Below, in pieces: positions 19,773 through 64,000 of a DNA stretch of 64,000 nt. A model generated the notes under the pieces. It had not been told where the DNA came from, did not search any database, and worked only from the letters and a program-made list of their open reading frames with translations. Position 1 is the stretch's first letter. Every line of letters starts with the position of its first letter. Both the position numbers and the translations under genes were made by a program. The stretch is from Artemia franciscana (lineage: Eukaryota; Arthropoda; Branchiopoda; Anostraca; Artemiidae): assembly GCF_032884065.1 (NCBI RefSeq), contig NW_027062697.1:1-64000 (forward strand). The letters are read 5' to 3'.

Positions 19773-19774
19773 AT

Positions 19775-21786: not shown

Positions 21787-22449
21787 ATTGGGACAAAACT
21801 TACGATTTAGTGTAAAGAGCGAGGTATTAACGAGGGTACAAACCCCCTCGTACACATAATAAAAATATAAGAATATAAAAGTTTGTTACGTAAGTTAATT
21901 CTTAAGTTACGTATATTTTTTACTAATAAAAACGTTCGTTGAATATTAAAAGTTCTAGTAGCCTTTTTAAGTAACCGAAAAATTGGAGGGCAGCTAGGCT
22001 TCCTTCCCCACCCCTTATTTCTCAAAATCGTCTGATCAAAACTAAGAGAAAGCCATTTAGCCAAAAAAAAATTAATATACTAATTTCATTTCAATAATTT
22101 ATGTGCGGAGAGCAAAAATCAAACATGCATTAATTCAAAAACGTTCAGAAATTAAATAAAAAAAACTAGTTTTTTTTAACTTAAAGTAAGGAGCGACATT
22201 AAAACTTAAAACGAACAGAAATTACTCCGTATATGAAATGGGTTGTCCCCTCCGCAGTCCCACGCTCTTTACGCTAAAGTTTTTAATTTTTTTAAAAAGT
22301 AGAATTGTGGCAAAGAGTCAAACTTTAGCGTATAGAGCGAGTGACTGCGGAGGGGACAACCAATTTCATATACAGAGTAATTTCTGTTCGTTTTAAGTTT
22401 TAATGTCGCTCCTTACTTTCAGTTAAAAAAACTAGTTTTTTTTATTTAA
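21787..22449 (+). mobile_element. Long-inverted-repeat family 2, partial arm
   Basis: Begins mid-element next to the PLE (GGGACAAAACTTACGATTTA) and runs through the GAGCGAGGTATTAACGAGG and TCAAAATCGTCTGATCAAAA blocks into the inner hairpin at 22155-22449. Same orientation as 24256-26032. The outer part with the 18-nt palindrome is missing, perhaps cut off where the PLE sits. Confidence 0.7.
22155..22449. repeat. Family 2 inner hairpin
   Basis: Two ~125-bp arms (AAGTAAGGAGCGACATTAAA ... and its reverse complement) separated by ~40 bp, bounded by AAACTAGTTTTTTTTA on both sides. Recurs at 25692-26032, 45355-45635, 47005-47292, 50415-50712, 62500-62785 and as a half at 60265-60430. Confidence 0.85.
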
Positions 22450-22626
22450 TAGATATACTAAGGACCAAACTAAAGTAAAATTTTCTGCACAGCGTTTAGG
22501 TGTTTAGGTTTCTACATTACTGCAGCGACACAGGCGCTCAAGTGCTTCCCGCACGGTGATCATTTTTTGAAGTCCCTTCAGTTTGTTAATCTCAACCAGT
22601 ATTCCGTCACTAGGTGTCGTAGTGAA

Positions 22627-29000: not shown

Positions 29001-30125
29001 TGTTTCATAGTTTTACACATTCTGATAACTCTATCGGAATGTTCTCAAATTTTGAGAACAAAAAGATCACTTTACAGTTGTACATCTATAAAAATAAGCT
29101 ATTTCCTAGTTTCATGGTTTTCTAAATTCCGATAATTCTATCGGAATGTTCATAAATATTGAGAACAAAATGACCAATTTACAGTTGTATAATTATAAAA
29201 AAAATAAGCTATTTTCCTAGTCTCATACTTTGATACATTACGATAACTCTATGAGAATGTTCTCAAATTTTGAGAACAAAATGTTCACTGTACAGTTGTA
29301 TATCTTAAAAAAAGAAGCTATTTTCCAAGTTTTATAGTTTTATACATTCCGATAACTCTATTGGAATATTCTCAAATTTTGAGAACAAAATGACTAATCT
29401 ACAGTTGTATATCTATAAAAAAGAAGCTATTTTCTTAGTTTTCTAGTTTTATGCATTCCTATAACTCCATCGGAATGTCCTCAAATTATGAAGACAAAAT
29501 GACCAATTTACAGTTGTATATCTGTAAAAAAAGAAGCTATTTACCTAGTTTCATAGTTTTATACATTCTGATAAAACTTTCGGATTGTTCTCAAATTTTC
29601 AGAACAAACTGACCAATCTAAAGTTGTATATTTATAAAAAAGAAGCTATTTTCCTAGTTTCATAGTTGTATACATTCTGATAGCTCTATTGGAATGTTCT
29701 CAAATTCTGAGAACAAAATGATCACTTTACAGTTGTATATCTATAAAAAATAAGCTATTTTCCTAGTTTCATAGTTTTATACACTCCGATAACTCCATCG
29801 GAATGTTTTCAAATTTTAAGAACAAAATGGTCACTGTACTGTTGTATATATATAAAAAAGAAGCTATTTTCCTAGTTTTATAGTTTTATACATTCCGACA
29901 GCTCTATTGGAATGTTCTCAAATTTTGAGATATACAACTGTACAGTGGCCATTTTGTTCTAAAAATTTGAAAACATTTCGATAGAGTTATCAGAATGTAT
30001 ACAGCTATGAAACTAGGAAAATAGTCTCTTTCTTATAGATATACAACTGTACACTGATCGTTTTGTTCTTAAAATTTGAAAACATTCCGATGGAGTTATC
30101 GGAATGTACAAAATTAAGAAACTAG
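26033..30125. repeat. AluI-type satellite, block 2, with inverted segments
   Basis: About 36 further ~110-bp monomers. Orientation is + for 26033-27005, - for about 27006-27895, + for about 27960-29932 and - for 29933-30125. The 27896-27960 junction is an AT-rich scramble (GAATTTCTATATCGG...). The + to - switches at 27006 and 29932 both lie at the TCTCAAAATTTGAGA palindrome next to GTATATC. Confidence 0.85.
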
Positions 30126-30539
30126 GAAAATTTTTCCTAAACTTTTTTTAAAAATACCATAAATTGCAATTTGTTTCATAACTAATAATTAGATTATCAT
30201 TCTATAATATTTCTATTTCTTTGCTATCGTAATTAGTAGAAATAAAACTTTTTAATATTATTTAATATTTTTGACTGGTTAATTTAAATATTTAATTTCT
30301 TTTAATGAATTATAAAAATATTTTGTTAATAACATACCTAATAAACACAATTAGTGAAGTATTAATCGTATTTATTTAATAGACAATCCCAAAAGATGAT
30401 CATATCTTATTCACAATCAACCGAGTTTATCATAGATCGTAATACCAAACAGATCCAATGACTTCTTAGCGGAATAACACCATCTGTTGATTGTTGGTTG
30501 TTGATTGTCACAATACATCTGTTTATTGTCACAAAATAA

Positions 30540-30710
30540 ATTGTGTATTTTGTAAATTTTGATTTATATTTACTAATAGTATTCACTAAGTTGTACACGA
30601 GTAACAATAAATCTATAATGTTATTACAAGATGTTAAATTATGTATTAAGACAACTAGTAGAATAATCTTAAAATAGATATGTTAAGACTTAAGAAGTGT
30701 TGCGTTCTTA
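30540..30710 (+). repeat. Left arm of an inverted repeat in the AT island
   Basis: Its reverse complement (AACACTTCTTAA ... TTTAACATCTTGTAATAA ... CAACTTAGTGAATACTATTA) matches 34545-34700 at about 75% by eye. Confidence 0.6.
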
Positions 30711-33700
30711 TTATGAAGTCAGTAATTATGTAAATTATATTAATTATTGTTTACAATCTTTTATCAAGATTATCAAAAAATCTTGAAAGATTATCAAGAA
30801 TATAACCATTTATTCCTTAAATCATTTTTCGATAGAACTTTATTATCAAACAATTTGAGTTCAAGTTTTTAAGAAACTCGAAACTCTATTTCAAACATTG
30901 TATTTTCTTATTCACATGTAAATTACATAAAGAAAAATAAATTAAAAATAGTTTTTTTTGAAAAATCATAAAATAACACGTAAATCAATTATACGTTTGA
31001 TAATAATTATAATAAAGTTAATGAAAGTTATATTCCGGTACTAAATCACAAAACTAATTATTTGGTTTTAACAATTTACATCATCAAAAAACTAGCATAA
31101 GTATATCAATAAATATGAGATTAAAATATAATTTTTAACTAATTTTTTTATCTTAAAAGGATTTCACAATATAAAATATAGCTATAAAAATAATGCAAGT
31201 TTTTCTACAGTTAACAATAATACAATCATGACTAATAGATTTATCTTTTCTACTTTTACATTAAATACACACTTTGTTAATTAACAATCCTTAGAAAAAC
31301 TTAAATTAATATTATAAGATTACAAATTGTTTGAAAAATGTATGAAGATTTATTAAAAACAAAATCATATTTAACAATATAGTGTCATTCGTTTCTTACT
31401 AAACGGGTTTTTATATAAAAATTAGTTATTATATTATACTTGTTTAAAGCATAAAATGTTCAAAAGAATTTAATTATAATAAATCAGATTAATATAATAT
31501 TGATTATGGTCAAAAATGCTATTTGACTTATATGTTATAACTTGGAATATAACATATATAAACTTGTATTATTTACAGAATCATTATGCTATTTTCAAAT
31601 ACTTTTTCTCTATATTCTATGAAAAACTTAAAAACTAATTTCTCTTTGTTTTTGGGTCATTCTACAAATTAGGTTATTTATTTATTTGATTACTTTTTTT
31701 AATATCTTTTTGCGTGCTATATATTTACTTGGTTAGATTCAAACAACAAGACCATTGGTTATTATATTAAATCTTGATCTATATGTTAGAATTATGCTAT
31801 TGATCTATAGCCTGTTACAAATAAATTTTGTTTATTTATTTGAATGATGTTCTTATAATCCAAATTGAGTAATATCTGCTACCATTTTATTTCTGTTGAT
31901 ATTTATAAAATTGTTTTCAGATAAATATTTATTATAGTTATTATTTTATATCAAATATTCTGTGATCCAAAGAGTTTACATTGTAGACTAGTATTTATTT
32001 TCAATTATTTAGACAATAGGTTTAGCTTTTATAGCTAAAACTCAAGGTGCAGTGTACATGGATATTATATAGTTAATTATATAATTACTAGTAATTGAGA
32101 TATACAAACTTTATTCTATTTTATATCGTTTAATATATTTCTTCCTTAATTAGATATCGTATTATAATAAAGTTTTATATTATTTTTGAATAAAACACAA
32201 TTCTATAATTTAATATTTTGTATTTAGATTTTGAACTATAATTTAAGGAGTATTATAACATCATAACAAATATTTTGTTGATTTAGTAACAATTCTATAA
32301 ATAATATATAAAACAAATAGATAGAAACTGTCAACATGAGATTCGAACATGCATCTAAATATAAATTTTATTTGATTTTAAAACTTCTATGGTAATATAA
32401 TCATTATATAAAACATTTTATTATTTTATCATACAAAATAACAAAATTTTATCATATATAAATAAATTTATTAATATATAGAATGAACAACTATTTAATA
32501 TATATAAAAGACTTTACTAAGTAAATATAAAAATATTTTTATATATTTCTATTGTATAAAAAAAATATTTCCGTATAAAAACGATATTATTAAGATTCGA
32601 ACATAAACACACCTTTTTTCCAAAAACACAATTCCTGGTTGGAATCTTGATATTTGCACATTATTACAATAATATTTTTATAATAAGACAAAAAATGATA
32701 CCAAAGAAGGTTAAAAAATTAAGAAGAAGCAATTGTATTCACCTGTTAATTCTATTTATAACTAGTTGTATTGTTTTACTTTGTTACAAGAATAAACATT
32801 TACAACTTAAAAGAGACAATATAAAGTTTTCATTGCGTTATGATATATTCTATTTATATATAAATATAGATTATATATTATAAGTTAGCTAAAGATTTTG
32901 TATTCTTCTATTTTTTTGATAAATTACCATTGTAGAAAAACATTTAATAGAATCTATAAGAATTTAAGAATAAAAATATCATTTAATTTCTGTAAATTAT
33001 TATATAAATTAGTTATCACTTATTTTTGTTTAATTTAATTAGATAAAATTTTAAAAATATAATCATTGACATAGTGTTGAGAAAGTTTTTTTTTAGCAGT
33101 GAAAAAATATTGTCCTATAATTGTTCTTTATACTTTAACGCTTAAAAGAATTCTTCTACAATATAGGATACCAGTTTTTATTATTTATACTGATAGAAAA
33201 AAATACTTAATAATTAAAGTAGATAATAATTTGATCACCATCCTGTTTCATTTATCAATAATTAAGTTTAATTTAACTTTACCTTAAACACCATTTTTGA
33301 ATCTCAATGTGAGATTTTTTTGTTTTAACTTTAAATCCGATTAGATTATTTTACTGATAAAATTTACATCTTTTTATTGTATTTACATAATAAAATATAA
33401 TCAAAAATTACTCTTTTTTTATTTTTTGTGAACATTATGGATTTATTCATGTTATATTTGATCTATATTTAAATCTAAATTATTTATTGTGGAGTCTTTT
33501 ATTGTGATTTAAAATTATTTAGTTAATAGATTACTATTTCTTACCTAGTTAAAATAAATTTCTTATATTTGTAATATCATTACTTAAATAGAAGAAATCT
33601 TTAAACGCTAACACTCAGTTTTAATACAATATTGGATATTGATGATATTAAATTATTCTTATTATTGTATTACAATCTTATTTTAACAATGTTAATAAAT

Positions 33701-34477
33701 ATTAGAAATTATTTATTTTTTATATGACTATAAAAATATAAATCTCGAAATATATTTTATTAGTGCATTTTATACATTATTTATAGAAATAAAATATGTT
33801 AAATTGCAAGTTGTATACCATTTTATTTTTTATCTATTCTTGTTAATATAAAAATATCATATAATATGTTTTTGATAGCATAATATAATTTTATTGATTA
33901 TTAAACACAAAAGTAAATACTGGGATTCGAACCAATTACTTATAAAAATTAGATCAATATTTAAAATAAAATTTTTAAATAAATGATTTGAAGAAATAGT
34001 TTATTAATCAAAAAAATTTAGACGAAATCTGTTCTATTAATCATAGTAATAAGAAAAATCATTAAATTGTAGTACTATAAAATATAATATAGCAAAGTGA
34101 TTCGAACTTCTGTACAAATATAAAATATAAAATATAGAACATCAGTATATGATAATAAAAAATTCCCTCTAAAGTATTAATTTATTATGCAAGAACATAC
34201 TAATCAATATACAACATAGAAATAAAAAAGCAAATTAAAAAAACGGTAGTTAAATAATACTGTAAATTTTAGTTTTAAAAATATACCTTTTTTCTATGAA
34301 TTATAATATTTTTAATTAATATTCAATTTCTGATTATCATTTATTGAAACAAATACTATTTAAAATAATATTAAAATAATTTAAGAAACCTAATAATTCA
34401 TACAATTTATTCAAAATAATAGTAGTAATCATAAAAATTTTGTATTCCTAATTTTCTAATCTTATTTTCGACTACTT

Positions 34478-34519
<42 letters not shown>

Positions 34520-34544
34520 GAATTATTTAAATATTTTATTAGAA

Positions 34545-34700
34545 AGATAACCTAACACTTCTTAAATTTAAACATATTTATTTAAGATTATTCTTCTAAT
34601 TATTTTAATATTTAATTTAACATCTTGTAATAAAATTAGATATTTATTTTACTTATGCGCAACTTAGTGAATACTATTAATGTATTTATTAAATATTCAT
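34545..34700 (-). repeat. Right arm of an inverted repeat in the AT island
   Basis: Contains ATTTAACATCTTGTAATAA and CAACTTAGTGAATACTATTA in reverse-complement relation to 30540-30710. The arms are about 4.1 kb apart. Confidence 0.6.
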
Positions 34701-36430
34701 TAAATCTTCAAGTATAAAAGTTTCTAAATATCATTATATTTTATACAATTTATAAATAAAGATTGCAAATACAATTTTGCTGTTTTTCAAACCTTAAAAG
34801 TAAACATATTTACATATTTCCGTATTCTATATGTATTTTTAAAAGAATAAAATAATATTTATTATCCATTATCATATTTTCTTTCAATTTTCGTTTTAAA
34901 CAAGTGAACGACATAATAAAAAAAAAGATTTATTTATGCTAGAAGAATCAATATACCAAAATTCAATGAAAAGGATTCATTATAGATTTATAAAGGTTAA
35001 AGAGATATTACAAATTATATAAGAAGACTGAAAATAAAACAATCATTACTATATAATCTAAAATTATTAGAGATATAAATGCAAAATTGTATTTTCTTAT
35101 CAAAAACAAAATGAGTTTGTCAGATTTATGATAATTATGTTAAGAACATTCTAACGTAGTTTTAATATGTTTAGTAAGATGAAATAAAAATCGTGTAGGT
35201 ATTAATTTTAATAATACTTCGGGTATAATTCAGATTTATTCGATTGTATGATAGAGATTTCGGCTTTGAAAATAGTATAACATTATACAGATATAAGTTT
35301 AGTGCCATAATACAGCTCAAAATATCTAAGAAATAGACTTTATAAAACATTAAAAAATGAAAATGCATCTTTATCTTACAAAGAGAACATGGTAAAATTT
35401 TTATGTTGAATAGAAGAAAAATATCTCAAAAATAACATTGGACATCTGATTAAGATATTATTATTAACTCTCAACAAATAAGAAAAGTGTAATCTTTTAC
35501 AATTTAAATTTTATCAGGATTTTTCTCTTTTTTTTAGATAAAAACAAAAATGAGCTAATTTGTATTTAACTGAGGCTAGGCAACATTAAAAAGGTATAAT
35601 AAAATACATTAAAAATAATCTTAGATTAAATAAAGCCTTGTGATACGCGTGAAATATTTTTGAAGCAGAAAACTCAAAAGCAATCAAAAATTAATTGATG
35701 TCTTTAGGAATAGAAAGAGTTTAGTATAAAACAATGGTATAAAATTTAGATATAGTATATATTAATACATTATTATTTTAAAGAATAATCAGAACCATGT
35801 TTAACTGTTATTCTGCTAAGATTCTCTTACTAAAATATTATAAACGAAGTTCTCTATATTTAAGGATTGATAAAGAATTCTTTAATTTAATCACAAATAC
35901 TATATTAAGGAATAATAACTTACAATTAATAATAAAATAAATTATTGTCATTTAAATATAATTTAATATTTATTTTAAATGATTGGTTTGTTTTTAATTA
36001 AATATTTAAAAACATTTTCTTATAAAATAAAAAGAAGATTTTTTACAATAATTGGTTAAAAAAGAAAATTATATTATTATATAATTTAAATTATTGTTTA
36101 TTAACTGTAAACGAACAACAAATAATTTTAAATTAATTTATGAATATTGATTTAACAACATTCGTTATAAAAAAAAAACAAAAGCACTGTAATTTATAAG
36201 CATAAAACATATTACAATGATGTTTGTTTTATAAATAACTAACTAACGTCTTTAATTATTGATAATATTTCAATGAAAAAAGATGGTTAGAACAGATCAA
36301 ATGAAATGATTTTGAAAAAAGATGCGAAAATAGCATTGTGTTTTTAAACTTTAATTTTAAAAATAATCAATGACTACTTGGTTAATAATTTGTTAACTAC
36401 TTGGTTAAACTTTATACATCTAACTACTGA

Positions 36431-42005: not shown

Positions 42006-42920
42006 CAAGTTGTTATTATTGATTAAGGCTGGACGGACTCGCAAAGAATCTTCTTATACCTCCCATGTTAAACATTTGGAGTTTGCCTGACGTTCCTGAA
42101 TTAGTGATTTTGGTGGTTTTTATGTCAATAGAAGTAAAAAAATCTGGTGAATATTTTGGCATAATCAAATCTTAAAGCCGACAATTATTTTTTTTATAAT
42201 TCCAAAATAATTATAAAACCTGTTTCGGGTTTGCATTCTAGATTGCTATGCTTGACATTGTTGTTGTGGGTATCAAAAAATAGAGCAAAAAATTTTCTAT
42301 TCATCAATAAGAAGCTTTTTTCTATAATATATACCTCCTGGCTGCAGTCCCTTCAAATACTTTACATATTTGTGTTCCGAAGTCAAAATTTCTCTTCAAA
42401 AGGTTAGATTGAGCTGTAATCGGAGCATCTAAGAATGCAAAAATTACACCAAGGGGCTAACCACTCGGATTGTTCAGGAGCGATTCAGTCAAGCATTATT
42501 TAGTTCTAACCTGTTTAAACGGAGTCTAGAGAAGAAGTAAGGTGCAGACACCAAACTACCGGTTAATGAATATATAAGAAAATTGTATTGTATAAATAAT
42601 TAAGGATAAGCTACGTCTAATCCTAGAGATAAATTGAACACAGCTCAAGGGCCGAATAAGAAGCAATGGTTTTATTTTAAAAAGATTGATCTATCGTTTT
42701 GGTTTAATTAAAATAAATTCAGGACAAATTTATGTATTGTAGTATAAGTACAATTTTGCATAATCTTCGTACTGAAATAAGAATTAAAAATATATAAAAC
42801 AAGCTAATTAATAACTAATGAATGAAACAAAATAACTAATGAACGAAACAAAATGTCCCCAGAATATTTAAATTTATTATAGCAAAACCCGAGTCTTGCT
42901 GTAGAACTACCAAAGCAAAC
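42006..42920. other. Intergenic, nothing recognised
   Basis: AT-rich, no frames or shared repeats noticed. Confidence 0.45.
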
Positions 42921-42923
42921 TAC

Positions 42924-43105
42924 AAAAGCAGTCAATGACCAGTCTCAAGTCCAAGGCCTTTCCAAGAAAGAATCCCACCCCTTGGTAAATAAACCCCAAT
43001 AAAAATTACCCATACTAAAGCAGTCAAATGACCAGTCTCAAGTCCAAGGCCTTTCCAAGAAACAATTCAACCCTTTAGTAAGTGAACCCCGATAAAAATG
43101 GTCAA
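42924..43105 (+). repeat. 93-bp tandem duplication
   Basis: Two units starting AAAGCAGTCAA(A)TGACCAGTC at 42924 and 43017, each ending CCCCAATAAAAA/CCCCGATAAAAA. Few differences, so fairly recent. Confidence 0.8.
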
Positions 43106-43153
43106 AACCCTCATAAGGTTCTTATATAGTTCTTGTTATTGACCACAGTAACA

Positions 43154-43671
43154 TGGGAAAAAAAAAGAAATATACGAGGGCTCCATTTGCCAAATGTGCA
43201 GGCCCATCGTGAAAAGTTGAAATTAAATTATCGGGCTAGAGGCAGACTGCGTTTACCAAAATATATGTTAGAAGACTTAACGGATGCTTCGGTTCACGAC
43301 GAATCAAGTTCCGAAGGAATTGGAACAAATTCCCCTTTTGTGTTGAAAGTTATCACTCCTGGAAGAAATTTGGGGTCAGACCTTCTAAAAGGCTCACGCT
43401 GGATTGTGGATCTGCCTTACCTTTTTTGAGAATTATGAAAAGCTCGTGATTCGCCGCATGTAAGTTTTTTCTTTGTCTTTCATTTTACGTCATTGATTTA
43501 CTGCTATCAAAATTATTAGGATGGGGAATTATTCTGGGTTGCAATTAATACAACTTGTACCTTATTAATTCTTGATAATTGCCTTTTCTGCTATAGAGAA
43601 AGAATGTTCGATAACTTTTAAAGATATTTTCATCCCAAAGCAACAGAACGCTCCGACGGTATCTACTAAGG
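43154..43671 (+). pseudogene. Possible two-exon gene fragment, unidentified
   Basis: An ATG at 43154 is followed by a run of nine A. In the shifted frame a long reading follows: KRNIRGLHLPNVQAHREKLK, then RGRLRLPKYMLEDLTDASVH and VITPGRNLGSDLLKGSRWIV. A T-run shift near 43423 leads into FENYEKLVIRR, and then a strong GTAAGT donor at about 43461. An acceptor-like CTGCTATAG precedes 43597, and the next stretch ends at an AAG/GTTAGT donor near 43671. I do not recognise the protein. The two shifts suggest decay or sequencing error in homopolymers. Confidence 0.35.
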
Positions 43672-43764
43672 TTAGTTTAATTTCACTATTGTTGGTTTTA
43701 CCAACAATTTAAAGCTTATATAGAATAGTCGGCAGTTGTTTCGCTATTTCTTTAGCAATCTCAT

Positions 43765-44060
43765 CTTCGTTTAGACAAGACAAGATTTATTTCTACAAAA
43801 CGGCTATCACAAGCCCAAAAGGGCCAAATTCACATTTTAGTCTCAATAAAAAAATTAAAAAAATGGTGAATGCTAATCAGTAATAAATATCAAACCAGTT
43901 CAAACTCATAAAATTGCAATCAGTAAAATAGTCAAACCATAAAAAGTCTTAAATTAAAACCGGGAAAACAAATTTAAACAAAATGACAATTTAGTTTACC
44001 TTGCAAGAATTGTAAAGTTTGCAGTTGTAAAATAAGCATTAAAACTATAAGTTAAAAGTG
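43765..44060 (-). mobile_element. Non-LTR retrotransposon 3' tail
   Basis: On the minus strand it ends GGCCCTTTTGGGCTTGTGAT ... AAATAAATCTTGTCTTGTCT. The GGCCC..GGGCTT hairpin and the AATAAATCTTGTC end match the layout of the 3' region at 16815-16900 (GGGCTTACA, GGCCATTTG, TTAATAAACCC). No coding. Confidence 0.5.
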
Positions 44061-44189
44061 GAGCGATAAGAGCGAAGGGTTAGTAATTTAAAATTTCAAA
44101 TATGTGAAGGATGAACGTTCTTCTATATCTTTCAGTGGAAACTCTTATTTGGGCAAGAAGGGGGATGTTTGTTGAATTAGAACGTGGGG

Positions 44190-45051
44190 CAGTGGCGAAT
44201 GCAGGGGGCACCCTCCCCCTGACATAGTAGTAGATTTGTGGTTGGGACCGCTTCCTCTGGTTCTTTTAGGGACAAATTTTTTTATATTTGGTTTTTAATA
44301 GTCGAGTTTTTAGTAAGTTTTTAGTTATTAAGGCTGTTTCTTTTTGCAAACAAGTTTGAAACAAGGTTTCAGTTACTTTTTGCAGTCTCTGTTAGATTTT
44401 TATTAATGACACATGTCCCCAAAAAGTATTTAATTAAATTCAAGTTTATCAAGGGGATCTGTTCGTATTACCACAAATGCCAACTGGGAGGCGAAAATTT
44501 TCATTCGTAAGAAGGGGAGATTTAAAATTCTGACTTAATCCGCTGCTAATAGCAACAATAAGAAAGCATTATATTTCTATTTCTTTGTTCTATTTTTCCT
44601 GCTACACCATCAAACGAACTATTACTTAATGTTTAATCAACAATTAGTTCCAAAGAATGTATGATACCAAAATATGGTACTAATTTTTTTTTTTTGACAA
44701 TACAAAGTTTAAGTAACTCGCTATAGTCGCCAGAAGTGCAAATGCTAAAAATTATGCAGACAAGATTTAATATATTATTTTTTTGTAGAGGGTGAACAAC
44801 CTTTTAAATGTGTTTTATGGCGAGGTGGTTCTTATAAACTTACTTTTTTTGTATCAATATTTCTAATTGACTTTAATTTCAATAGAACTCATCAGATTTT
44901 ATATTAAATTAAAGTCCATGTCCACTACCTACCCACGACTTAGAAATTGTTGCAGTTCCATTTAAATTGTTGGTATTTCTTTGTCCACAAGTTTATCGGA
45001 GTAACCTTTCATGTACACCCCCCCCAAAAAAAAATCCTAGATCCGCCCCTG
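44190..45051. mobile_element. Non-autonomous hAT-type DNA transposon
   Basis: Left end CAGTGGCGAATGCAGGGGGC; right end, reverse complemented, CAGGGGCGGATCTAGGATTT. Flanked by 8-bp near-identical target copies, ACGTGGGG (44182-44189) and ACGTGGCG (45052-45059). The 8-bp duplication and CAG-start terminal repeats are hAT features. No transposase remains in the 860-bp interior. Confidence 0.7.
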
Positions 45052-45102
45052 ACGTGGCGGGTGGGTAAATATTCACTAGGGAAAGGAGAAGTAGTACAAG
45101 GG

Positions 45103-45295
45103 TTATGCACGATATTGTTGGCAAAATAATAAGGAAATTTGTACTCTCATTTCCTCAAGGGTGACTAGATTTGCTCTCCGAAGAAGGGAAATGTAAGGCC
45201 CTTTACCCTGTTTGAAAATAATTCTTAGACACGTTTTTTGAACTGCCTCTATTCTGTCCCACAATTCATTGGACATGCCAGAATGGCAAACAGAG
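45103..45295 (-). pseudogene. Scrap of LINE reverse transcriptase C-terminus
   Basis: Minus-strand reading CHSGMSNELWDRIEAVQKTC, then LRIIFKQGKGPYISLLRRAN and LVTLEEMRVQISLLF. The RIExVQKxxLRIIF and LxTLEEMR pattern is the conserved tail of CR1/Jockey-type polyproteins. About 60 codons only. Confidence 0.65.
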
Positions 45296-45354
45296 AAACA
45301 GAAAAAAAAGCACAAAAAAAATGTATTAATCCAAAAACATTCAGAAATAAAATG

Positions 45355-45635
45355 AAAAAAAAACAAGTTTTTGAACTGAAAGTAAGGAGCGACATTACAA
45401 CTTAAAACAAGCAGAAATTACTCTGTATATTAAAAGATTTTCTCCCTTCTCAACGCTCTGCTCCTTACGCTAAAGTTTTTTACTGTTTTAAAAAGTAAAC
45501 TTGAGAAAAAGAGTCAAACTTTAGCGTAAAGAGCAAGGTGTTGAGGGAGGAAAAGCCCCTTTGATATACGGAGTAATTACTGTTCGTTAATTTTGCTCCT
45601 TACTTTCAGTTAAAAACTTCTTTTTATCATTTTTT
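45355..45635. repeat. Family 2 inner hairpin, solo copy
   Basis: Arms AAAGTAAGGAGCGACATTAC... and its reverse complement around a TTTTACTGTTTTAAAAAGTA loop. It has no outer arm of its own and lies directly left of the autonomous-looking element. Confidence 0.75.
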
Positions 45636-45674
45636 TTCCAACATAAAGCGAACTTACCAGTAGAGGTAATTTCG

Positions 45675-47292
45675 AACAGTTCGTGGTAACGAACTGTAGT
45701 AAGGAGCGACCCGGCTCAATAGTAACCAAAGCTCTAAAAAACAGAATTTTGATATCAGAACATCTCAAGAATCGCACTGTTATGCCGATTTTAAATATGT
45801 GAGTTTCATCATCAAGTTTAGTCTTACCCATCAAAAGTTACGAGCCTGAGAAAATTTACCTTATTTTCGAAAATGAGGGAACCCCCCTAAAAGTCATTTA
45901 ATCTTAAAGAAAGTAACACCATCAGATTCAGCGTATCACAGAACCTTATTGTACAAGTTTCAAGCTCCTATCTACAAGAATGTAGAATTTTGTCTATTTT
46001 GCCAAAACACAAATCCCAGATACGTGTTTATTTATTTAATTCTTTTTTCCAAGGGTGATTGTACCGACCCAGTGGTCTTAAAATTTTGCGAGAGGGCTCA
46101 TTCAAATGGAAATGAAAAGTTCTAGCGCCATCAAAATCCTGATATAGCCATTTTATTCAGCATAGTTGAAAAACCTTATAACTATGTCTTTCAGGACGAC
46201 TTACTCCCCCAAAGTCCCCATGGGAGAAGCTGCAAGTTAAAAACTTTGACCAGTGTTTGCACATAGTAATGATTATTGGGAAGTGTACAGACGTTTTCAG
46301 TGGGATTTTTTGGTTGGAAGGAGGGGTTGAGAAGAGGAGGTTATATTGGGGAAACTTTCCATGGAGGAATTTGTCATGGGGAGGAAAATTTTCCATGAAT
46401 GGGAGGGGGCAGGATTTTCTAGCATGATTTAAAAAAACAATGAAAAAATAAATATGAAAAAGTGTTCTCAACTGAAAGTAAGGACCAGCGGTAAAACTTA
46501 AAAAGAACAAAAAATATTACACATATAAGGGGTTCATTCCCTCCTAATCTCTCAGTCTTTACGCTAAAGTATTTTTTAGTAATTTCAATTATTTATTCTA
46601 CGGCCTTTGTGATTCAGGGGTCATTCTTAAGGATTTAGGACAAAATTTAAGCTTTAGTGTAATGAGCGAGGTATTGACAAGTGGGCGAGCCCCCCTTATA
46701 TACGTAATAGATACCTGCGAATATAGAAGTTCGTTAGGTAAGCTAATTCGTAAGTTACGTTTATTTTTACTAATGAAAACCATCGTAAAAAACTAAAAGC
46801 TCTAGTTGCCTTTTTAAGTAGCAAAAAATTGGAGAGCAGCTGGGCCTCCTTCCCCGCTCATTTTTCTCAAAATCGTTCGATCAAAATTATGAGAAAGCCG
46901 TTTAGCCAAAAAAAATAAAAATTCAAATTTCGTTTTAATTATTCATCTGCGCAGAGCCGAAATCAAAACACGGATTAACTAAAAAAAACGTTCAGAAATT
47001 AAATAAAAAACGATTTTTTTTAAATGAAAGGAAGGAGTAACACTAAAACTTAAAACGGACAGAAATTACCCAGTATATGAAAGGGGCTTTTCCCTCCTCA
47101 ACGCCCCACTCTTTACGCTAAATTTTTTACTGTTTTAAAAATTAGAGTTAAGAGAAAGAGTCAAACTTTAGCGTAAAGAGTGGGGCGTTGAGGAGGAAAC
47201 AGCCTCTTTCATATACGGGATAATTTCTGTTCGTTCTAAGTTTTAATGTTGCTCCTTACTTTCATTTAAAATACTTGTTTTTTTATCTAATC
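45675..47292 (+). repeat. Left long inverted arm
   Basis: Palindrome at 45678-45695, CCGGCTCAATAGTAACCAAA block, CGCTCATTTTTCTCAAAATCG block, nested inverted GTAATGAGCGAGGTATTG region, and inner hairpin at 47005-47292. Confidence 0.75.
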
Positions 47293-48000
47293 ATTAAAAA
47301 GTACGGATAAAGGTTCTGAAAGAATGTCTGCAAAGGCTTTAAAGGATTTGAGAAATAAACTAGCTAATTTGATCCTCCTAACTCATAAAAGCATATTGGT
47401 ATTTTTAATCGTACTAATAAGAACTTTGTGAATTACTCGAATAAAAATTTAAATGATAGTTGAGATGCAACTGAATTTGGGGCACGGATTTTTACTTTGA
47501 ATTTGATTTTAGGGAGTCAAGTGAGACTTAATTTTTCTTGGAATTTGGTTAGTAATTTCCGTTGGAATTTGGTAAATCGACACGGGTCTGTTTAGATCCT
47601 GTCATGCCCCAAAGGATTTTGTAAAGTTTTGAAATACTTGGCTTTCCTGATCGGTAGTTCCAGGACAGTTTTTGGCTTGGTTACATACATATATAAAATT
47701 GGGTGGTTTAATCTGACAATGAAATACAACAAACTTTCGGTTAGATCGTATAATTTCCACTTCTCGCCCATTTCTAGCTATATTTTATATTTTATTTCAT
47801 ATTTTAATTACCCTACATCGCTCACTACTCTACATACTACCTATTCTTTTTGAAGCTATAGCACTTTCCTTTCTACCAAAACAATATAATCGCTACTTTA
47901 CTATTTTACTTCCTCACAACCAATTAGCATTTTATTTATAGGTGCCAAGACATCAATTTGGTTTCAAATATGATGTTTTCTAAAGAACATAGAGCTGGAT
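47293..48000. other. 5' flank of the transposase gene
   Basis: No long frame. An acceptor-like TTTTATTTATAG lies at 47930-47941 just before a short coding-like stretch, so an upstream non-coding exon or intron is possible. No promoter is assigned. Confidence 0.35.
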
Positions 48001-48036
48001 TGCACTCAAGACTCATCTTCAAATACGAATCATGTC

Positions 48037-50283
48037 ATGAGGAAGCCACAATTCACACAGAAAAACCCCTTGCTCCTAGAAGGCTTAAAAAAAAAAGACT
48101 CAACGAAAACCGTAGTCAAAAAACGGAAAAGGACTGATTTTGATAGTGTAAATACTATCAGAAAGAAACACAAAACCGAAACAGGAACAGTAAGTGTCAA
48201 CAAAGAGGTAGTGGTTGGTGCAATAAATGGTGGAATGACTCACGCCCAGGTTCAAGAACTTTTCTCTACCATTGGAATAAATACCCCGTCTCAAAAAGTC
48301 TGTACGAAATTTGAAAAAGAAATTTGCGTAGAATTGGAAAAAGTTCTCTATGACTATCTTATCGAAAATGGGAAAACCGAGTGAAGGATGGCACTGGAAG
48401 CAGGTGAGAAAATTCACCCAAATGGAGCTGTAGAGACATGTTTTATAGTTGATGGAAGCTGGTGTACACGAAGTTATGGGAATAGATATCGTGCACTCTC
48501 AGGCTGTGGAGTGGTGATAGGTTTCTATTCGAAGAAACTCTTAAATCTAGGAATTAGGAACAAATATTGCTGTACATGCGTGAAATACAGGCATCAAGTT
48601 AATAGATCTGTTCCTGAACATACATGTTTTATGAACTGGCAGGGGCCCAGTACAGGTATGGAGTCAGATATATTAGTTGACGCATTCCGAATAGCAACAT
48701 CCATGCACAATCTAAGATATACTCGATTTGTTGCCGACGGCGATTCAAGTACCCATTCTGAAATCATTGCAAGGGTACCATATGGCAGAAATGTAGAAAA
48801 AATTGAGTGTGCTAATCATGCGTGCAAATGCTTGAAAAACAGACTATATAAGAAGCAGCATGAAAATGCCGAATGCAGAAGATTTCTTAGTGCCGCAATA
48901 ATAAAGAAAATGTGTGATTTTGCCAGAAATGCAATTGTATGTGCCACCACAGAGAAAAAAAGCGTGAAGGATCTCATCAGTGCGCTGAAGGCAATTCCTC
49001 TACATTTTTTCCGTGGTGACCATAGATTTTGTCCTACACGCTGCTCGTTCTCCGGGAAAGTTCTACAGGTCAATCCTGAAGACATCCCTAGCAACATCTT
49101 TCTCAGCCATGTGTATTCAGCCTTTGATACGCTGACCAGAAGGGCTCGTCTACTGATAGGAAACCACACGAGCAACCTGGCAGAATATTTTATGAGCATA
49201 GTTGCAAGGCTTATAGGTGGCAAAAACATCATGGTTAGCCAAAGTGCGCGATATACCACCCGTGTTAAAGCAGCAGGAATCCGATTTACGAAAGGTCACT
49301 CTGCTCGCCTTGAAATATTTCGAAGAACTGTAGGATCTACACCAAGTAGGCAGCTGAAAAAACTTGCACAACAGCGGGCCATGACTACTGCTCGACGTAA
49401 AAAACTGTCTGCTAAAAAGTGCCTTTTCACTAATGCTTCCACAAAACTCCCTTCAAAAGAAATCAGGGAGCCAACCGGAGCAGACAAAAACTACGGCTCG
49501 AACGCAACTGCTCCGGATCTTGATTGCAGTGCGCTCGAAATTGCAAAAACAGATTTTTTGACTCGTCTCCAATGTACTGCAACAGATATCCTCAGTATCG
49601 AAAAAGCCACTAGGCTTCAGAGAAATTCTATCGATAATAGCTGGATAGAATACAGAAGAAACAGAATTACAGCTACCGTAGCTGGTGCTGTTTGTAAAAG
49701 GCGGTTGAAGACTGTGGGCTCATTAGTTCGGCAGCTGCTGTATCCCAGAAACCGCCAAACAAAGGCAATGGAGCATGGTCAGATGTATGAGCCTGTAGCT
49801 ATTGCAGCTTTTGCAAAGAAAATGGGTTGCATTGTGAACTCTGCTGGGCTTTTCATTCACAAGGAATATTGGTTTCTAGGGGCCAGTCCGGACGGGATAG
49901 CAATTTTTCCTTCGGGTGAGAAGGCTCTTTTGGAGGTGAAGTGCCCTTTGACAGCAAAAGGGCTTACATTGGAAGAGTGGATAGCGCTTAAAAAATATAC
50001 ATGTCTAGAAAAGAAAGTTAATAGTGAAATAAAGCTGAAAAGAACACATGACTACTATTACCAAATTCAAATGCAATTGGAATGTTGTGACATTGATTTT
50101 TTATACTTTGTAATATTTTTAGGGGAAGAGGAATTATATTATGAAAAGATTGGTCGTGACCGAGAATTCTGGTCTAACAAAATGCTGCCAAATCTAAAAA
50201 AAATTTATTTTGAGGCACTGTTACCAGAAATTGTCGACGGAAGGTTGCCAAGAAGTATGGAGATACGAGAACCGTTTATATAA
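48037..50283 (+). CDS. Mutator-like transposase fused to YqaJ nuclease
   Basis: One frame of 748 codons plus the final stop, interrupted only by a TGA at 48382-48384; a CGA to TGA change is likely. The uninterrupted part from 48388 has 631 codons. Before the TGA: a basic N-terminus with KKRKR and KKHK nuclear-signal-like clusters. After it, residues about 18-330 show IVDGSWCTRSYGNRYRALSG (Asp22), FVADGDSSTHSEI (Asp117, Asp119) and KIECANHACKCLKNRL, the pattern of the Mutator-like DDE domain found in many aquatic invertebrate proteins. Residues about 420-570 form a YqaJ/lambda exonuclease fold: RRNRITATVAGAVCKR, GQMYEPVAIAAF, GASPDGIAI (Asp502), LLEVKCP (Glu516, Lys518) and YYQIQMQL (Gln559-563). 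All expected PD-(D/E)XK residues are present. It probably moves the surrounding inverted-repeat element; the nuclease role is unknown. Confidence 0.75.
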
Positions 50284-50414
50284 ATCCAACTGTGCTAGGT
50301 ATGGGTAGTTATCATGTGTCATTACAGTCTTATCCGAATACAAATTCAGATATACAAATACTCAAGCAACAATCGAACTTTAGAATATTTTTTAATGAAC
50401 CCGTATGGATAAGC
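50284..50414. other. 3' flank of the transposase gene
   Basis: Short AT-rich stretch between the stop codon and the right arm. No poly-A signal is clearly placed. Confidence 0.4.
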
Positions 50415-51849
50415 TAAATAAAAAGAACAAGTTTTTTTTTAACTGAAAGTAAGGAGCGACATTAAAACTTAAACGAACAGAAATCACTTCGTATATGAAA
50501 GGGGCTGCTCCCTCCTCAACGCCCCGCTCTTTACGCTAAAGTTTTTTACTGTTTTAAAAAGTAGAATTGAGAGAAAAAGAGTAAAACTTTAGCGTAAAGA
50601 GCGGGGCGTTGAGGAGGGAGCAGCCTTTTTCACATACGAAGTAATTTATATTCGTTTTAAGTTTTAATGTTGCTCCTTGCTTTCAGTTAAAAACATGTCT
50701 TTTTTTCATTTAATATCTGAACGTTTTTGAACTAATGCATGTTTTGATTTTGGCTCTCCACAGATGAATAATTAAAACGAAATTTCATATTTATATGGCT
50801 TTCTCATAATTTTGATAGAATCACTTTGAGAAAAAAGGAGCAGGGGAGGAGGCTTAGTTGCCCTCCAATGTTTTGGCTACTTAAAAAGGCAACTAGAACT
50901 TTTAATATTTTACGAACGTTTTTGCTAGTAAAAGATCTACGTAACTTACGAGTTAGCTTACGTAACGAACTTCTGATTTCTGTTAGTGTTAAATTTTAAT
51001 GCTGCTCCTTACTTTCAGTTGAAAAAACTGTTTCATATTTATTTTTGTATTGTTCTATTTTGAAATAAGGCTAGAAAATCCTGCGCTCCCTTCATGGAAA
51101 TTTTCTTCCCCCATGACAAATTCATCCATGGAAAGTTCCCCCAACATAACCCCCTGTTCTCAACCCCCCCCCCCCCCAACCAAAAATCCTCCTGAAAACG
51201 TCTGTACATTTCCCAATAACCATTACTATATAAACACTGATCAAAGTTTGTAACTTGTAGCCCCTTCCACGGGGATTCTGGTGGAATAAGTCGTCCCCAA
51301 AGACACAGTTATAAGGTTTTTCGACTATGCTGAATAAAATGGCTATCTCAGAATTTTAATCGGGTGACTGTGGGAAAATAATTAGCGTGGGAAGAGGCCT
51401 AGGTGCCCTCCAATTTTTTAGATCACTTAAAAAGGGTACTATATACTTCATTTTTTTATATATAATTCACTTGTATATAACTTCATTTCCGTTGGAATGA
51501 GCCCGCTCGCAACATTCTATGACAACTGGTTCGATATAATCACCCCTGGAAAAAAAATCCATATTTTTGCTGATAGAAGCTTAACACTTCCACGGTAGGG
51601 TTCCCTGATAGGCTGATTCGGATGGGTGTAATTTTGATTTTATTACTTTTATTGGGTGTTTCCCTCTATTTTCTAAAATAAGGCAATTTTTCTTAGACTC
51701 GTAATTTTAGATAGGTATCTCATATATTTAAAGTCAGCATTAAAATGCGATTTTGTTCATGTAGCTATTGGTATCAAAAATCCGTTTTTTAGAGTTTTGG
51801 TTACTATTGAGCCGGGTCGCTCCTTAGTACAGTTCGTTACCACGAACTT
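50415..51849 (-). repeat. Right long inverted arm
   Basis: Reverse-complement counterpart of 45675-47292: hairpin at 50415-50712, GGCTCTCCACAGATGAATAA block, then CCGGGTCGCTCCTTAGTACA and the palindrome half-sites AGTTCGT (51831-51837) and ACGAACT (51842-51848). The middle hairpin section is shortened. Confidence 0.75.
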
Positions 51850-52650
51850 TTTGATAAAATGAAATAAATTTGTCACTTCGCTGCGAGCAATTATTTAAAT
51901 TATATTTTTCTAAATAGGTCTGCATGAAGTAAAAACCCAAAAATATGTACTTTTTATTTGTAATTTCCACAATTTTATACCGCGTCTCCTGGCAAATAAT
52001 GATGACCAGACCACAGGCACACACGCAGGCGAGGGATTCACCCACCTTAAATTTGTATAATGCTTAATTTTCTCAGCGAAATGTTTAATTTTCCTGTGTT
52101 TTCCTGGTATTTCTTTCGTAAGAGTTGAACCCACCTCCTCCAAAAAAAAAATCTCGAATAATAATTTCTCTAATTTTCTCCTCAAATAATAGTTCTTTTC
52201 CAAATAAATATTCCTATTTACTTGTCGAATTACGAAGAATGAATATACATTAATTATAATTTTCAGTGAGAAACCCCTTGAGTTTAATGACGGCAGTGAA
52301 ATCTGATAACCTTGAGTGTTTGTGTGATATCCCGCGATTGAAAAAGAATTGAAAAGACAGTATAATTTCTGGAGGAGCGTTCGGCCTTAAGTGGACACTC
52401 AAACAGCCAATGTGTTTTTTCGGTTTTTAATAAAAAAAATACCTTCATACGTCACACTGCAAATTTTTGGTAGTAGCGGGCACGAAAGTTAAAAAGAAAA
52501 AACGAGGAGGAAAAATCAGAAAAAAAACGAGATGAAACATGGTGTCAAACAGCTTAAGAAAGTGTAGTACTCTTTTACAGTAAAACGACACAAATATAAA
52601 TAGTTTCGCTTAATTTCTTTTTTTCAAATCTTGCACAAAAAAGAAAAGGT
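51850..52650. other. Intergenic, nothing recognised
   Basis: Two overlapping minus frames (51824-52203) have no domain. AT-rich otherwise. Confidence 0.45.
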
Positions 52651-59489: not shown

Positions 59490-60264
59490 GTAAAACCTAT
59501 ATTCTTGCTAATCAGGATAATTAAATGTCTTAGTTAACTTTCAGATGTTTTATGATAAAATTTGCTGCACCGTCCGCTGCTTAAGGGTATGGTACTACTA
59601 TTGGGAAATATATAGTTAATAGCTGTATGGAAGGTTAATTTATTTTATAGACAAAATATCTTTCATGTGATACAATAAAGAACAGTCTAGATCCTTATAG
59701 TTAATCTCAGCTAAGGTAGTGCTGACTTAAAAGGAAATCTAGTTGTAGGCTACCTACCACGCTCCAGTTTTGCTGCCAGGTCATCAATCGCTGTTGAACC
59801 TTGACTTTGCTATCAATGTTCCCTTACTCATGAGTGACTTTAAAAAGAAAGTTCTGTACCAGCTCCCTGTTTTGCTCCATGATCAATAGTATCATGATCG
59901 CAAAGACGAATCTAACAAATTTCGGAAGCTTGAAGATTATCTATGATGGAAGTCAAATCAAACTTTGGTTTTGTCCTAGTGAGATAGTTTATTCTTAGTT
60001 TATAATGATTTTCTTAATTTTAATATTTAAGTATTAATACTACTTCTGATTCAAGATGGGTGGATTTATCGTAAAACTCCAGCTATTTATTCACATACTT
60101 AATATACTTTTGACCGGTCTTGATGTTTTCCTTCCTCCAGTCCAGGCATCTTATATCCTGTTTTTAAAACGTAATGCAGTTTTGGACTTGTTGCTGTTGT
60201 TCAATTAGGTTCATGCACATAATCTCTGCTCTTGTTATGTTTTCTCCAATTTTGAGCTCAGGTA
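59490..60264. other. Intergenic, nothing recognised
   Basis: AT-rich; no frames or shared repeats noticed. Confidence 0.45.
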
Positions 60265-61823
60265 AGTTTGACTCTTTCCCTCAACTTTACTTTTTAAAAC
60301 AGTAAAAATCTTTAGCGTAATGAGCGTTGCGTCGAGGAGGAAACAGCTCCTTTTATATATGGAGTAATTTCTGTTCATTTTAAGTTTTAATGTTGCTCAT
60401 TACTTTAAATTTAAAAACACTTGTTTTTATTTAATTTCTAAACGTTTTTGAATTAATGCATGTTTTGATTTTGGCTCTCCGTACATCAGTAAGTAAGACG
60501 ACATTTGTATATTAATTTGTTTTTTTTTGGCTAAATGACTTTCTCATTATTTTGATCGGATGATTTTGAGAGAAAAAGAGCGGGGGAATAGGCCGAGTTA
60601 CCTTCCAATTTTTTTGTTACTTAAAAAGGCAACTAGAACTTTTAATTTTACGAACAATTTTATTAGTAAATATATACATAATTTACGAATTAACTTACGA
60701 AACGAACTTCTAAATTCGTATGTTTTCATTACGTATATAAGGGGGTTCGCCCCCTCGTCAATACCTCGCTCTTCACACTAAAGCTTAAAATTTGTCCCAA
60801 TTCCTTAAGAATGACCCCTGAATCACAAAGGCCGTAGAATAAATAGTTGAAACTAATAAAATTACTTTAGCTTAAAGAGCGAGGTATTAGGAGAAGGTGA
60901 ACCCCCCTCACATGCGTAATAATTTCTGTTCGTTTTAAGTTTTAATGCTGCTTCTTACTCTCAGTTCAAGAAACTTTTTCATATTTATTTTTTCATTGCT
61001 CTTTAAAAAAATGCTAAGAAATCCTGCAACCCCTTCCTGAAAATTCTCTTCCTCCATGATAAATTCCTCCATGGACAGTTCCTCCGCATAACCCCCTTCC
61101 CTCAACCCGCCTCCCCAATTAAAAAAGTCCTCTTGAATGTGTCTGTACACTTCCCAATAACCATTACTATGTGTTAACACTGGTCAAAGTTTGTAACTTG
61201 CAGCCCTTTGCACGGAGACTCTGGGGAATAAGTCGTCCCCAAACACATAGTTTTTCGGTTTTTTGACTATGATGAATAAAATGGCTGTCTCAGAATTTTG
61301 ATCTGGTGACTTTAGGAAAAAACTGAGCGTGGGAGGGGGCCGAGGCGCCCTCCAATTTTTTGGTCACTTAAAAAGGGGACTAGAACTTTTAATTTCCGTT
61401 GGAATGAGCCCTCTGGTAGCATTCTAGGACCACTGGGTCGATATGATCAACCCTGAAAAAAAACTAAAATTAAAAAAAAATAAAAATAAACACGCATCTG
61501 TGATCTGTCTTGTGGCAAAAAATACAAATTGAAACTTCTACCGTAGGGTTTTCTGATACGCTGAATCTGATGGTGTAATTCTCGTTAAGATTATATGACT
61601 TTTAAGGGGTGTTTCCCCCTATTTTCTAAAATAAGGCAAATTTTCTCAGGCTCGGTACTTTTGATGGGTAAGACTAAACTTGATGAAACTTGTATATTTA
61701 GAAATCAGCATTAAAATACGATTCTTTCGATGTAACTATTGACATCAAAATTCCATTTTTTAGAGTTTCGTTTACTATTGAGCCGGGTCGCTCCTTACTA
61801 CAGTTTGTTACCACGAACTGTTT
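60265..61823 (-). mobile_element. Long-inverted-repeat family 2, reversed arm
   Basis: Same orientation as the right arm at 50415-51849. Starts mid-hairpin (loop TTTAAAACAGTAAAAATC), so its inner end is truncated. Runs through the nested inverted GAGCGAGGTATTAGG region to CCGGGTCGCTCCTTACTACA and the degenerate palindrome AGTTTGTTACCACGAACT. A 73-codon frame at 60560-60781 is repeat-derived. Confidence 0.75.
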
Positions 61824-62035
61824 GAAAGGCTATAAACTAACCCTTGTAATAAGCTGTTAATCTGATAATCTGAAGGGAAATAAGCAATTGAAACTAAAAA
61901 CAAAATCATTTTTATTTTTAAGCTGGCCATGAACAAGGTTTAACAAATGGGCAGGCAAAGAAGTCTTCAGTTAGCTTTGACTTAGTAAAGAGCGGTATGT
62001 CTCCCGTTTATTTTTTCTGTGGTCAAACAGTGCGT
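61824..62035. other. Short spacer between family 2 copies
   Basis: No features seen. Confidence 0.4.
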
Positions 62036-62785
62036 GGTATCGAACAATAAGTAAGGAGCGACGTGGCTCAATATTAAGCGAGACTGTAAAATACAAACTT
62101 TGCAATCAATAGGCACATCAAAATATTTGGCTTACTATGCTGATTCTAAATTTATAAGATTCGTTAAGTTTAGTGTTACTCACCAAAGGATAAAAACCTG
62201 AGAAAATTTGCCTGACTCTTGAAAAAGGGGGAGAACACCCCTTAAAGGTCACGGAATGATATTGGAAATCACACAATCAGATTCAGCATATCAGAGAATC
62301 CAACTGTGGAGGTTTTGAGCTTCTTGAGCTGTGGAGGTTTCTTAGAATTCTTAGAATGGGATTTTGTAAGTAAGGGAATTTTCTACGGGAAGAGTTTTCC
62401 ATGGGAAGGAAGTTTGTGGGGGAACTTCCTAGGGGAAATTTAAACCAAAGGGTGGGGATTTCCTGGCATTATTTGAAAAATAGTGATAAATTAAATTTTA
62501 AAAAATTAATAGGAAGTAGAGAGTAAGATTAAAACTTAAAATGAAATAACTTATTCCATATATGAGGGTTGCCGCTCCCTCCAAAAAATAGTTAAATAAA
62601 ATCATCACAAATACAGTTAAAATACAGTATCACAAAAATAGTTAAATGAAATTATGACAAAGAGTGAGATTTAAGCATCAAGAGAAGGTATCAAGGAGGG
62701 GGCAGCCCCTTTCATATATGGAATAATTTCTGTTCGTTAAAGTTTTAATGTCGCTTCTTATTTTCAGTAGGAAAAACTAGTTTAA
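62036..62785 (+). mobile_element. Family 2, old diverged copy
   Basis: Starts AACAGTGCGTGGTATCGAAC (palindrome degraded), then AGTAAGGAGCGACGTGGCTC, with a strongly shortened middle and an inner hairpin at 62500-62785 with an internal duplication of ATAGTTAAAT(G/A)AAAT. Confidence 0.65.
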
Positions 62786-63366
62786 AATAAATTTAGTTTC
62801 TAATGAAAAATCCATGATACATTACACAGTAGAAATTATCACGGTACCTGTGGTGCTCTGATATTAGAGTGTTTTGTTTTCTATAATTAGAGGTGGTTCT
62901 ATGGAGTCTTAGCCCCCTCCCATCCTCTCATTTATTGATGGATTGTATACTTTTTTTTAAATCTTGATCATTCTGGAATTATTTTTAAAGTAGTCCTAAA
63001 TGACTAAATATCTACTATTAAAATTAATTTCAGTAATTAACTTCAGAAGATAAGTTAGTTTATCACATAACCAAACACGATGCTCCTTCACTCATTTGAT
63101 CGGTGATAACAGTAAACAAGAAGTGCCACAAAAGAAATACCAAAGTTTTCTTTCCTCTCCCCCCTCTTCCGTTCCAGAAAGTAGATGTAGGCCTTTTGAC
63201 TGTTGGAAAATTAGATAGTTTCTTATTCTATACAGCGTCAAAACGTCGTGATCAAAGGATCAAATGAAGTTGAAACCTCATGGGAAGGAGTAAAAAGTGA
63301 AGCTCTGAACAGGTTTGGGTGGGAGAATGGCCTCTATAGCTCCATTGGCCTGATGGCGATACTTTC
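62786..63366. other. Intergenic, nothing recognised
   Basis: No gene, RNA or shared repeat seen. Confidence 0.4.
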
Positions 63367-63367
63367 A

Positions 63368-64000
63368 GACAGTTCGTGGTAACGAAGTGTAGTAAGGAGC
63401 GACCCGGCTCAATAGTAACGAAACTCAAAAAAACAGAATATTGATGCTAAAAGATACATCAAAAGAATCTAATTTTTATGCTGATTCTAAATATATAAGT
63501 TTCATCAAATTTAATCTTAGTCACCAGAAGTTACGAGCCTGAGAAAATTTGCCTTATTTTGGAAAATAGGGGTAAACACCCCCTAAAATTCAAAGAATCT
63601 TAACGAAAATCACACCATTGCATTCAGTGTATCAGAAAATCCTGCTGCAAAAATTTTAAGCTCCTATCTACAAAAATGTGGAATTTCATATTTTTTGCCA
63701 GAAGACAGATCACGGGTGCGTTTTTACTTGTTTGTTTGTTGTTTTTTTCCCCAGGGGTCATCGTATTGATCAAGTGGTCCTAGAATCTCGCCAGAGGGCT
63801 CATTCTAACGGAAATTAAAAGTTCTAGTGCCCTTTTTAAGCGACCATAAAATTGGAGGGCACCTAGGCGCCCTCCCACGCTCACTTTTTTCCCAAAGTCA
63901 ACGGGTCAAAATTTTGAGATAGCCATTTTGTTGCGTATAGTCGAAAAACAAAATAACTGTGTCTTTGGAATGACTCACCTCCCCAAACTCCCTGGGGGAG
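63368..64000 (+). mobile_element. Family 2 arm, cut by window edge
   Basis: Starts GACAGTTCGTGGTAACGAAG and AGTAAGGAGCGACCCGGCTC and follows 24256-24900 closely (TTTGCCAGAAGACAGATCAC, GGAGGGCACCTAGGCGCCCT). Continues past the right edge. Confidence 0.75.

Follow-up and report, generated by a model that had tools for sequence, protein, structure and literature searches.

A probable KolobokE-type DNA transposon of the brine shrimp Artemia franciscana that carries a transposase-nuclease gene and two nested copies of a foreign repeat

We found a gene in the genome of the brine shrimp Artemia franciscana that very probably encodes the two-exon transposase of a 10.36-kb cut-and-paste transposon of the KolobokE type, and the two long inverted arms beside this gene appear to be foreign repeats nested in the element. 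The window, i.e. the whole stretch of DNA that was analysed, comprises the first 64 kb of contig C111, and the searched genome measures 1.27 Gb. The original prediction of a DNA transposon with many related copies, in which a YqaJ/lambda-exonuclease-like nuclease is fused to the transposase, was borne out by our data. The same prediction also took gene and arms for one unit at 45675-51849 with the arms as termini, and named gene copies with different ends as evidence against such a unit. Copies of this kind were indeed found: they pass both arms and continue to TTAA-flanked ends, so that the unit spans 42027-52386 and ends outside the arms. Its features are given below with their window coordinates and strand.

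42023..42026, no strand: target-site duplication TTAA, left; read from left ends in varied flanks and from two paralogous empty sites
42027..52386, + strand: KolobokE-type DNA transposon, complete but broken copy of 10,360 bp; limits from homology to the C9 copy, right limits of copies and TTAA flanks
42027..42042, + strand: left terminus GGCTGGACGGACTCGC, a short imperfect terminal inverted repeat, 5'-RR
43153..43459, + strand: exon 1, encoding the transposase N-terminus; start codon predicted, coding frame seen from about 43202
43460..47941, + strand: intron of 4.48 kb, predicted from splice sites, phase and homology; holds the left arm
45672..47294, + strand: left arm, one copy of an interspersed, non-coding repeat that is abundant; it sits nested in the intron, inner boundary approximate
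47942..50283, + strand: exon 2, DDE transposase core and YqaJ/lambda-exonuclease-like nuclease, to the stop codon
48451..49185, + strand: catalytic and finger residues, assigned by motif
48451, 48736 or 48742, and 49183, + strand: catalytic D, second D and E, respectively, assigned by motif
48568-48627, 48808-48819 and 49021-49044, + strand: CCHC finger, CxxH and second finger, respectively
49642..50088, + strand: YqaJ domain (PF09588, E 2.2e-19) with E (49789), D (49891), E-x-K (49933-49941) and Q (50062)
50411..51854, - strand: right arm, the same repeat again, in inverted orientation and beyond the stop codon; inner boundary approximate
52371..52386, - strand: right terminus, with CC outermost (YY-3')
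52387..52390, no strand: target-site duplication TTAA, right

The limits of the element were read from its copies in the genome. A protein search gave at least 71 gene matches, the window included (70 of 1617 candidates scored), with 81-98% identity to the window gene and values below 92% in three of the 71 matches listed; stop-free frames of 730-784 codons were present in 15 of these 71. Every one of the six longer copies that were fetched (L039-L044) aligns past the right arm, and the right limit of the alignment lies at window positions 52373-52391 in five and at 52005 in the sixth. Two copies were extended leftward, where their alignments start at 42423 (C19, locally duplicated) and at 42023 (C9). 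The long alignments between copies and window are 95-98% identical and run across and beyond both arms.

TTAA immediately followed by GGC marks all 14 left ends inspected, in differing flanks. Twelve of these were matches to a query starting with TTAA, which favoured the detection of TTAA, and the two that were not picked by search are the window itself and the C9 copy, which was reached from the gene. GCC immediately followed by TTAA was seen in 12 of the 13 right ends with a located terminus, three of which came from searches with TTAA inside the query that likewise favoured its detection; among the nine right ends located by way of the gene and not by an end search, eight have TTAA. The sole exception among the 13 is the C9 copy (L040), with AATTAA in place of TTAA, and in L044, the fourteenth right end inspected, no right terminus was found. 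The terminal dinucleotides are GG in 14 of 14 left ends and CC in all 13 right ends located, and nine of the ten copies with both ends in hand, the window included, carry TTAA on both sides.

Searching the genome with the window flanks joined through a single TTAA furthermore gave two paralogous empty sites, on C7 (83%) and C16 (80%), with one TTAA at the junction in each alignment, as well as the window's own flanks and three weaker matches to one side only. The host sequence of a copy on C3 is an arm-type repeat. Its flanks, when joined, resemble the best fully junction-spanning copies at only 73-74%; the three best shorter window matches show no TTAA at the junction position, and this site was not counted as a clean empty site. 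The element thus inserts at TTAA and duplicates it, and the TTAA-bounded limits together with the single-TTAA empty sites identify 42027-52386 as the mobile unit. Empty sites had been proposed as a check on the arm-bounded unit; they exist, but they belong to the longer one.

The ends occur close to the gene elsewhere in the genome as well. Among the matches listed, 31 of 40 right ends have a gene or YqaJ match on the same strand at a distance of 0.9-2.2 kb, and 29 of 40 left ends have one at 2.0-7.6 kb; nine right and 11 left ends lack a gene match, and misses of this kind are expected. The count was based on 70 gene places from the 71 matches listed (the second piece of one split copy was omitted) and on 85 of 150 YqaJ places (those judged to overlap the gene list were omitted). 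None of the best 40 matches to the arm terminus lies within 15 kb of a gene or YqaJ match, the query being taken from the gene-less copy at 24 kb, so that these 40 are the nearest relatives of that copy and not a random sample.

The structure of the gene also points beyond the arms. An open frame of 748 codons had been described; in the window it is interrupted by an in-frame TGA at 48382-48384, which leaves 115 codons before and 632 codons after the stop, and exon 2 suffers from a frame shift in addition. Exon 1 is frame-shifted in the window copy and open in L047 and L048, where the open stretch matching window 43202-43459 runs into the donor GTAAGT (43460 in the window) and its phase fits exon 2 past the acceptor at 47941. 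A sister family on C5 starts exon 2 at the same residue and in the same phase (43% identity in the joined region) and has an exon 1 homologue upstream of it (33% identity, E 1.3e-11), with an intron of about 1.46 kb. Of two relatives that hold the whole region in a single frame, one (L073) gives an alignment that crosses the exon junction (24%, E 5e-8) and the other (L072) aligns inside exon 2 only (E 1.2e-05). Exon 1 alone has no Pfam match; in the joined protein the PF20700 match becomes a little longer, its start moving from profile position 28 to 13. We infer from splice sites, phase and homology that exon 1 is spliced to exon 2 to form a two-exon transposase. With its N-terminal part in a separate exon at 43153-43459, the gene would not be enclosed by the arms: since exon 1 lies outside and the acceptor of exon 2 is at 47941, the left arm falls within the intron and the right arm past the stop codon. 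The inverted repeats that were described around the gene are real and anti-parallel, but it is exon 2 that they flank. The window copy is no longer able to make the whole protein. Copies without its faults, i.e. the frame shifts and the TGA, exist elsewhere in the genome, and the last 632 codons are stop-free in 20 of 29 loci, the 632-codon piece of the window among them.

Profile matches to PF20700 (Mutator-like transposase; E 9.7e-08 before the stop and E 2.7e-47 after it) and PF09588 confirm that Mutator-like and YqaJ regions share one frame, as the original prediction had it. Compared by sequence with solved structures, the YqaJ part is closest to 3syy, an 'Exonuclease' (E 8.3e-05); lambda exonuclease 1avq gives only E 0.45. 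Of 29 loci, window included, 27-29 have the catalytic and zinc-binding residues intact. The C, C, H and C of the CCHC finger, which lies downstream of the first catalytic D, are present in 28-29 of 29, and so are the H, C and C of a putative second zinc finger between CxxH and the last E. Among 20 stop-free loci pN/pS was 0.58 overall, 0.53 in the transposase part and 0.78 in the nuclease part; these are rough values, affected by decay after insertion and by non-independent pairs. They were calculated from the last 632 codons after L033 (shifted register) had been dropped from the 30 loci and nine of the remaining 29 had been left out for stops. Such ratios are in line with a lineage under selection, which would act more weakly on the nuclease part.

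Genome-wide, at least 114 places matched PF20700. Some of them belong to families that have single open frames of 800-956 codons and many copies of near-equal score, so that the genome contains several other relatives.

The arms are copies of an abundant repeat. Left and right arm are anti-parallel and, when aligned with each other as had been suggested, 81.3% identical over 1154 common columns. Compared with the unlinked copies at 24 and 60 kb, each arm shows 80.2-81.5% identity, and these two copies are 80.5% identical to each other. The arms had been said to recur without the gene at least five more times in the window, and five copies or pieces were confirmed (about 21788-22450, 24256-26033, 60264-61827, 62023-62298 and 63360-63968), two of them near full length. 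The longer ones gave BLAST E-values of 1e-100 or below, so that their likeness is not due to chance. Both arms have a sharp outer end with a AGTTCGTGGTAACGAACT palindrome, and on the inner side they share an end that follows a large hairpin. Each arm has such an inner hairpin end of its own and gives the impression of a full copy of one repeat. TCA precedes five of six outer ends examined. A separate target duplication for each arm had been named as a second sign against the arm-bounded unit; inspection of the arm ends by eye revealed no clear one for either arm. The outer ends show no TTAA, which makes the transposase of this element an unlikely mover of the arm repeat. The claim that the element drives the gene-less arm family is not supported.

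Left-arm sequence beside exon 2 is kept in 27 of 30 gene loci, the window included, and absent from L024, L025 and L036. L024 and L025 lie 21 kb apart on C12 (near 36.83 and 36.81 Mb) and have in common a 4.2-kb internal loss that removed the left arm, as if by local duplication. In the C5 sister family, no arm sequence was found upstream or in the intron, and the downstream stretch holds arm-type repeats. A gene-less inverted pair of arms is present on C1 (L069, C1:21439760-21444020); it measures about 4.1 kb, its arms are 99.65% identical, and 68 kb from it there is a second, equally spaced pair of matches (C1:21371854-21375990).

Other parts of the window hold unrelated features. Host-like helicase exons with DEAD and DSHCT domains, which we take to be SKI2/MTR4-like by domain content, were seen at 13439-16429 (+). 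At 19760-21503 (+), a reverse transcriptase precedes a GIY-YIG domain whose frame overlaps with its own, presumably an arrangement as in Penelope-like elements. At 17062-18161 (-), two overlapping frames seem to be what is left of a retroelement; of these, the upstream frame (17640-18158) has a match to reverse transcriptase PF00078. The G+C content of 30001-36000 is only 18-21%, compared with 33% for the window.

Could arms and gene nevertheless form one autonomous transposon with long terminal inverted repeats that mobilizes the gene-less arm family? Exon 2 is flanked by inverted arms whose sharp ends face outward, the left arm has been retained at most gene loci, and the C1 pair demonstrates that inverted pairs of the arm repeat do occur. 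Against this stand the six longer copies that all extend past the right arm, the true ends with TTAA duplications on both outer sides, the position of exon 1 outside the left arm, the gene copies L024 and L025 that lack this arm, the absence of TTAA from the outer arm ends, and the fact that the arms are no nearer to each other than to unlinked copies. This explanation is almost certainly wrong. It is very unlikely, too, that both arms entered jointly as a single foldback insertion with inverted arms, which was later split by the DNA that now holds exon 2. The outward orientation of both arms and the gene-less inverted-arm unit on C1 would agree with such an event, and the equal divergence of all arm pairs would be compatible with one old insertion; but each arm resembles a complete repeat copy with its own inner hairpin end, and exon 2 had probably been linked with exon 1 beforehand, as in the C5 sister family, so that its arrival between the arms is improbable. 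The inverted pair might also have been kept for a function, if the primary transcript formed a long double strand by folding around exon 2 and small-RNA silencing or circular RNA limited the activity of the element. We see a small chance of this at best, and shared descent accounts equally well for the retention of the arm in 27 of 30 loci.

The name of the matching Pfam model, Mutator-like transposase, could suggest a Mutator element (MULE) proper instead of Kolobok. MULEs duplicate about 8-11 bp of their target, whereas the duplication observed here is the 4-bp TTAA, both in nine of ten paired copies and in the comparison with empty sites. The additional zinc fingers and the lambda-exonuclease-like domain that follows downstream moreover fit KolobokE as presented in PMC9587614. 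A MULE is highly improbable on these grounds, and the superfamily is Kolobok rather than Mutator proper, despite the name of the model.

For the KolobokE element with two nested repeats, the following course of events may be proposed. The transposase would most likely bind the short GGC... termini, excise the element and insert it at TTAA, with cut-and-paste presumably carried out by the DDE core. A probable task of the nuclease domain is the trimming or resection of DNA ends in excision or repair. Two copies of the abundant non-coding repeat very probably entered the progenitor of the family, where the intron received one and the stretch past the stop codon the other, and both have since been copied along with the element. 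A KolobokE family with many similar copies, defined ends, empty sites and a two-exon gene makes the role of the fused nuclease testable. Our data furthermore indicate that an abundant repeat flanking an exon in inverted orientation can be mistaken for transposon ends.

In PMC9587614, the Kolobok superfamily is characterized by a TTAA duplication, 5'-RR...YY-3' termini, a DDE transposase with C/DxxH between the second D and E, and a zinc finger between CxxH and the last E. Kolobok elements of Xenopus, as described in PMC6004289, have TTAA duplications in common with the brine shrimp element; they are 6.8-13.9 kb in full length and have short terminal repeats starting with AG. Their transposases are described with a THAP domain, and the word YqaJ does not occur in that paper. 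KolobokP belongs to the same superfamily and, according to PMC9587614, also combines an accessory nuclease with long repeats; the repeats of the brine shrimp element differ in being internal, inverted and foreign. A piggyBac assignment was considered in view of the TTAA duplication and rejected, as PF20700 is the only Pfam transposase match.

No transposon that pairs YqaJ with a Mutator-like transposase was found in the open-access literature searched, judged by titles and the first part of abstracts, and no paper on YqaJ together with Kolobok was found there. For Artemia together with Kolobok, the literature searched gave a single paper, on a yeast. Artemia is not named in the main text of PMC9587614, and the word Mutator is absent from the main texts of the Artemia genome papers PMC11492255 and PMC10827361.

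KolobokE is the closest counterpart. PMC9587614 places a CCHC finger downstream of the first catalytic D and a lambda-exonuclease-like domain further downstream in these elements, and the brine shrimp element shares both with them, along with TTAA, the RR...YY termini and DDE with CxxH. None of the features named there that we tested on the brine shrimp element revealed a difference. What sets the brine shrimp family apart from the KolobokE described there are the two nested copies of a foreign repeat; the window copy is 10.36 kb long. The element very probably represents a further family of the known KolobokE type, in Artemia franciscana, and owes its unusual look to these two nested repeats.
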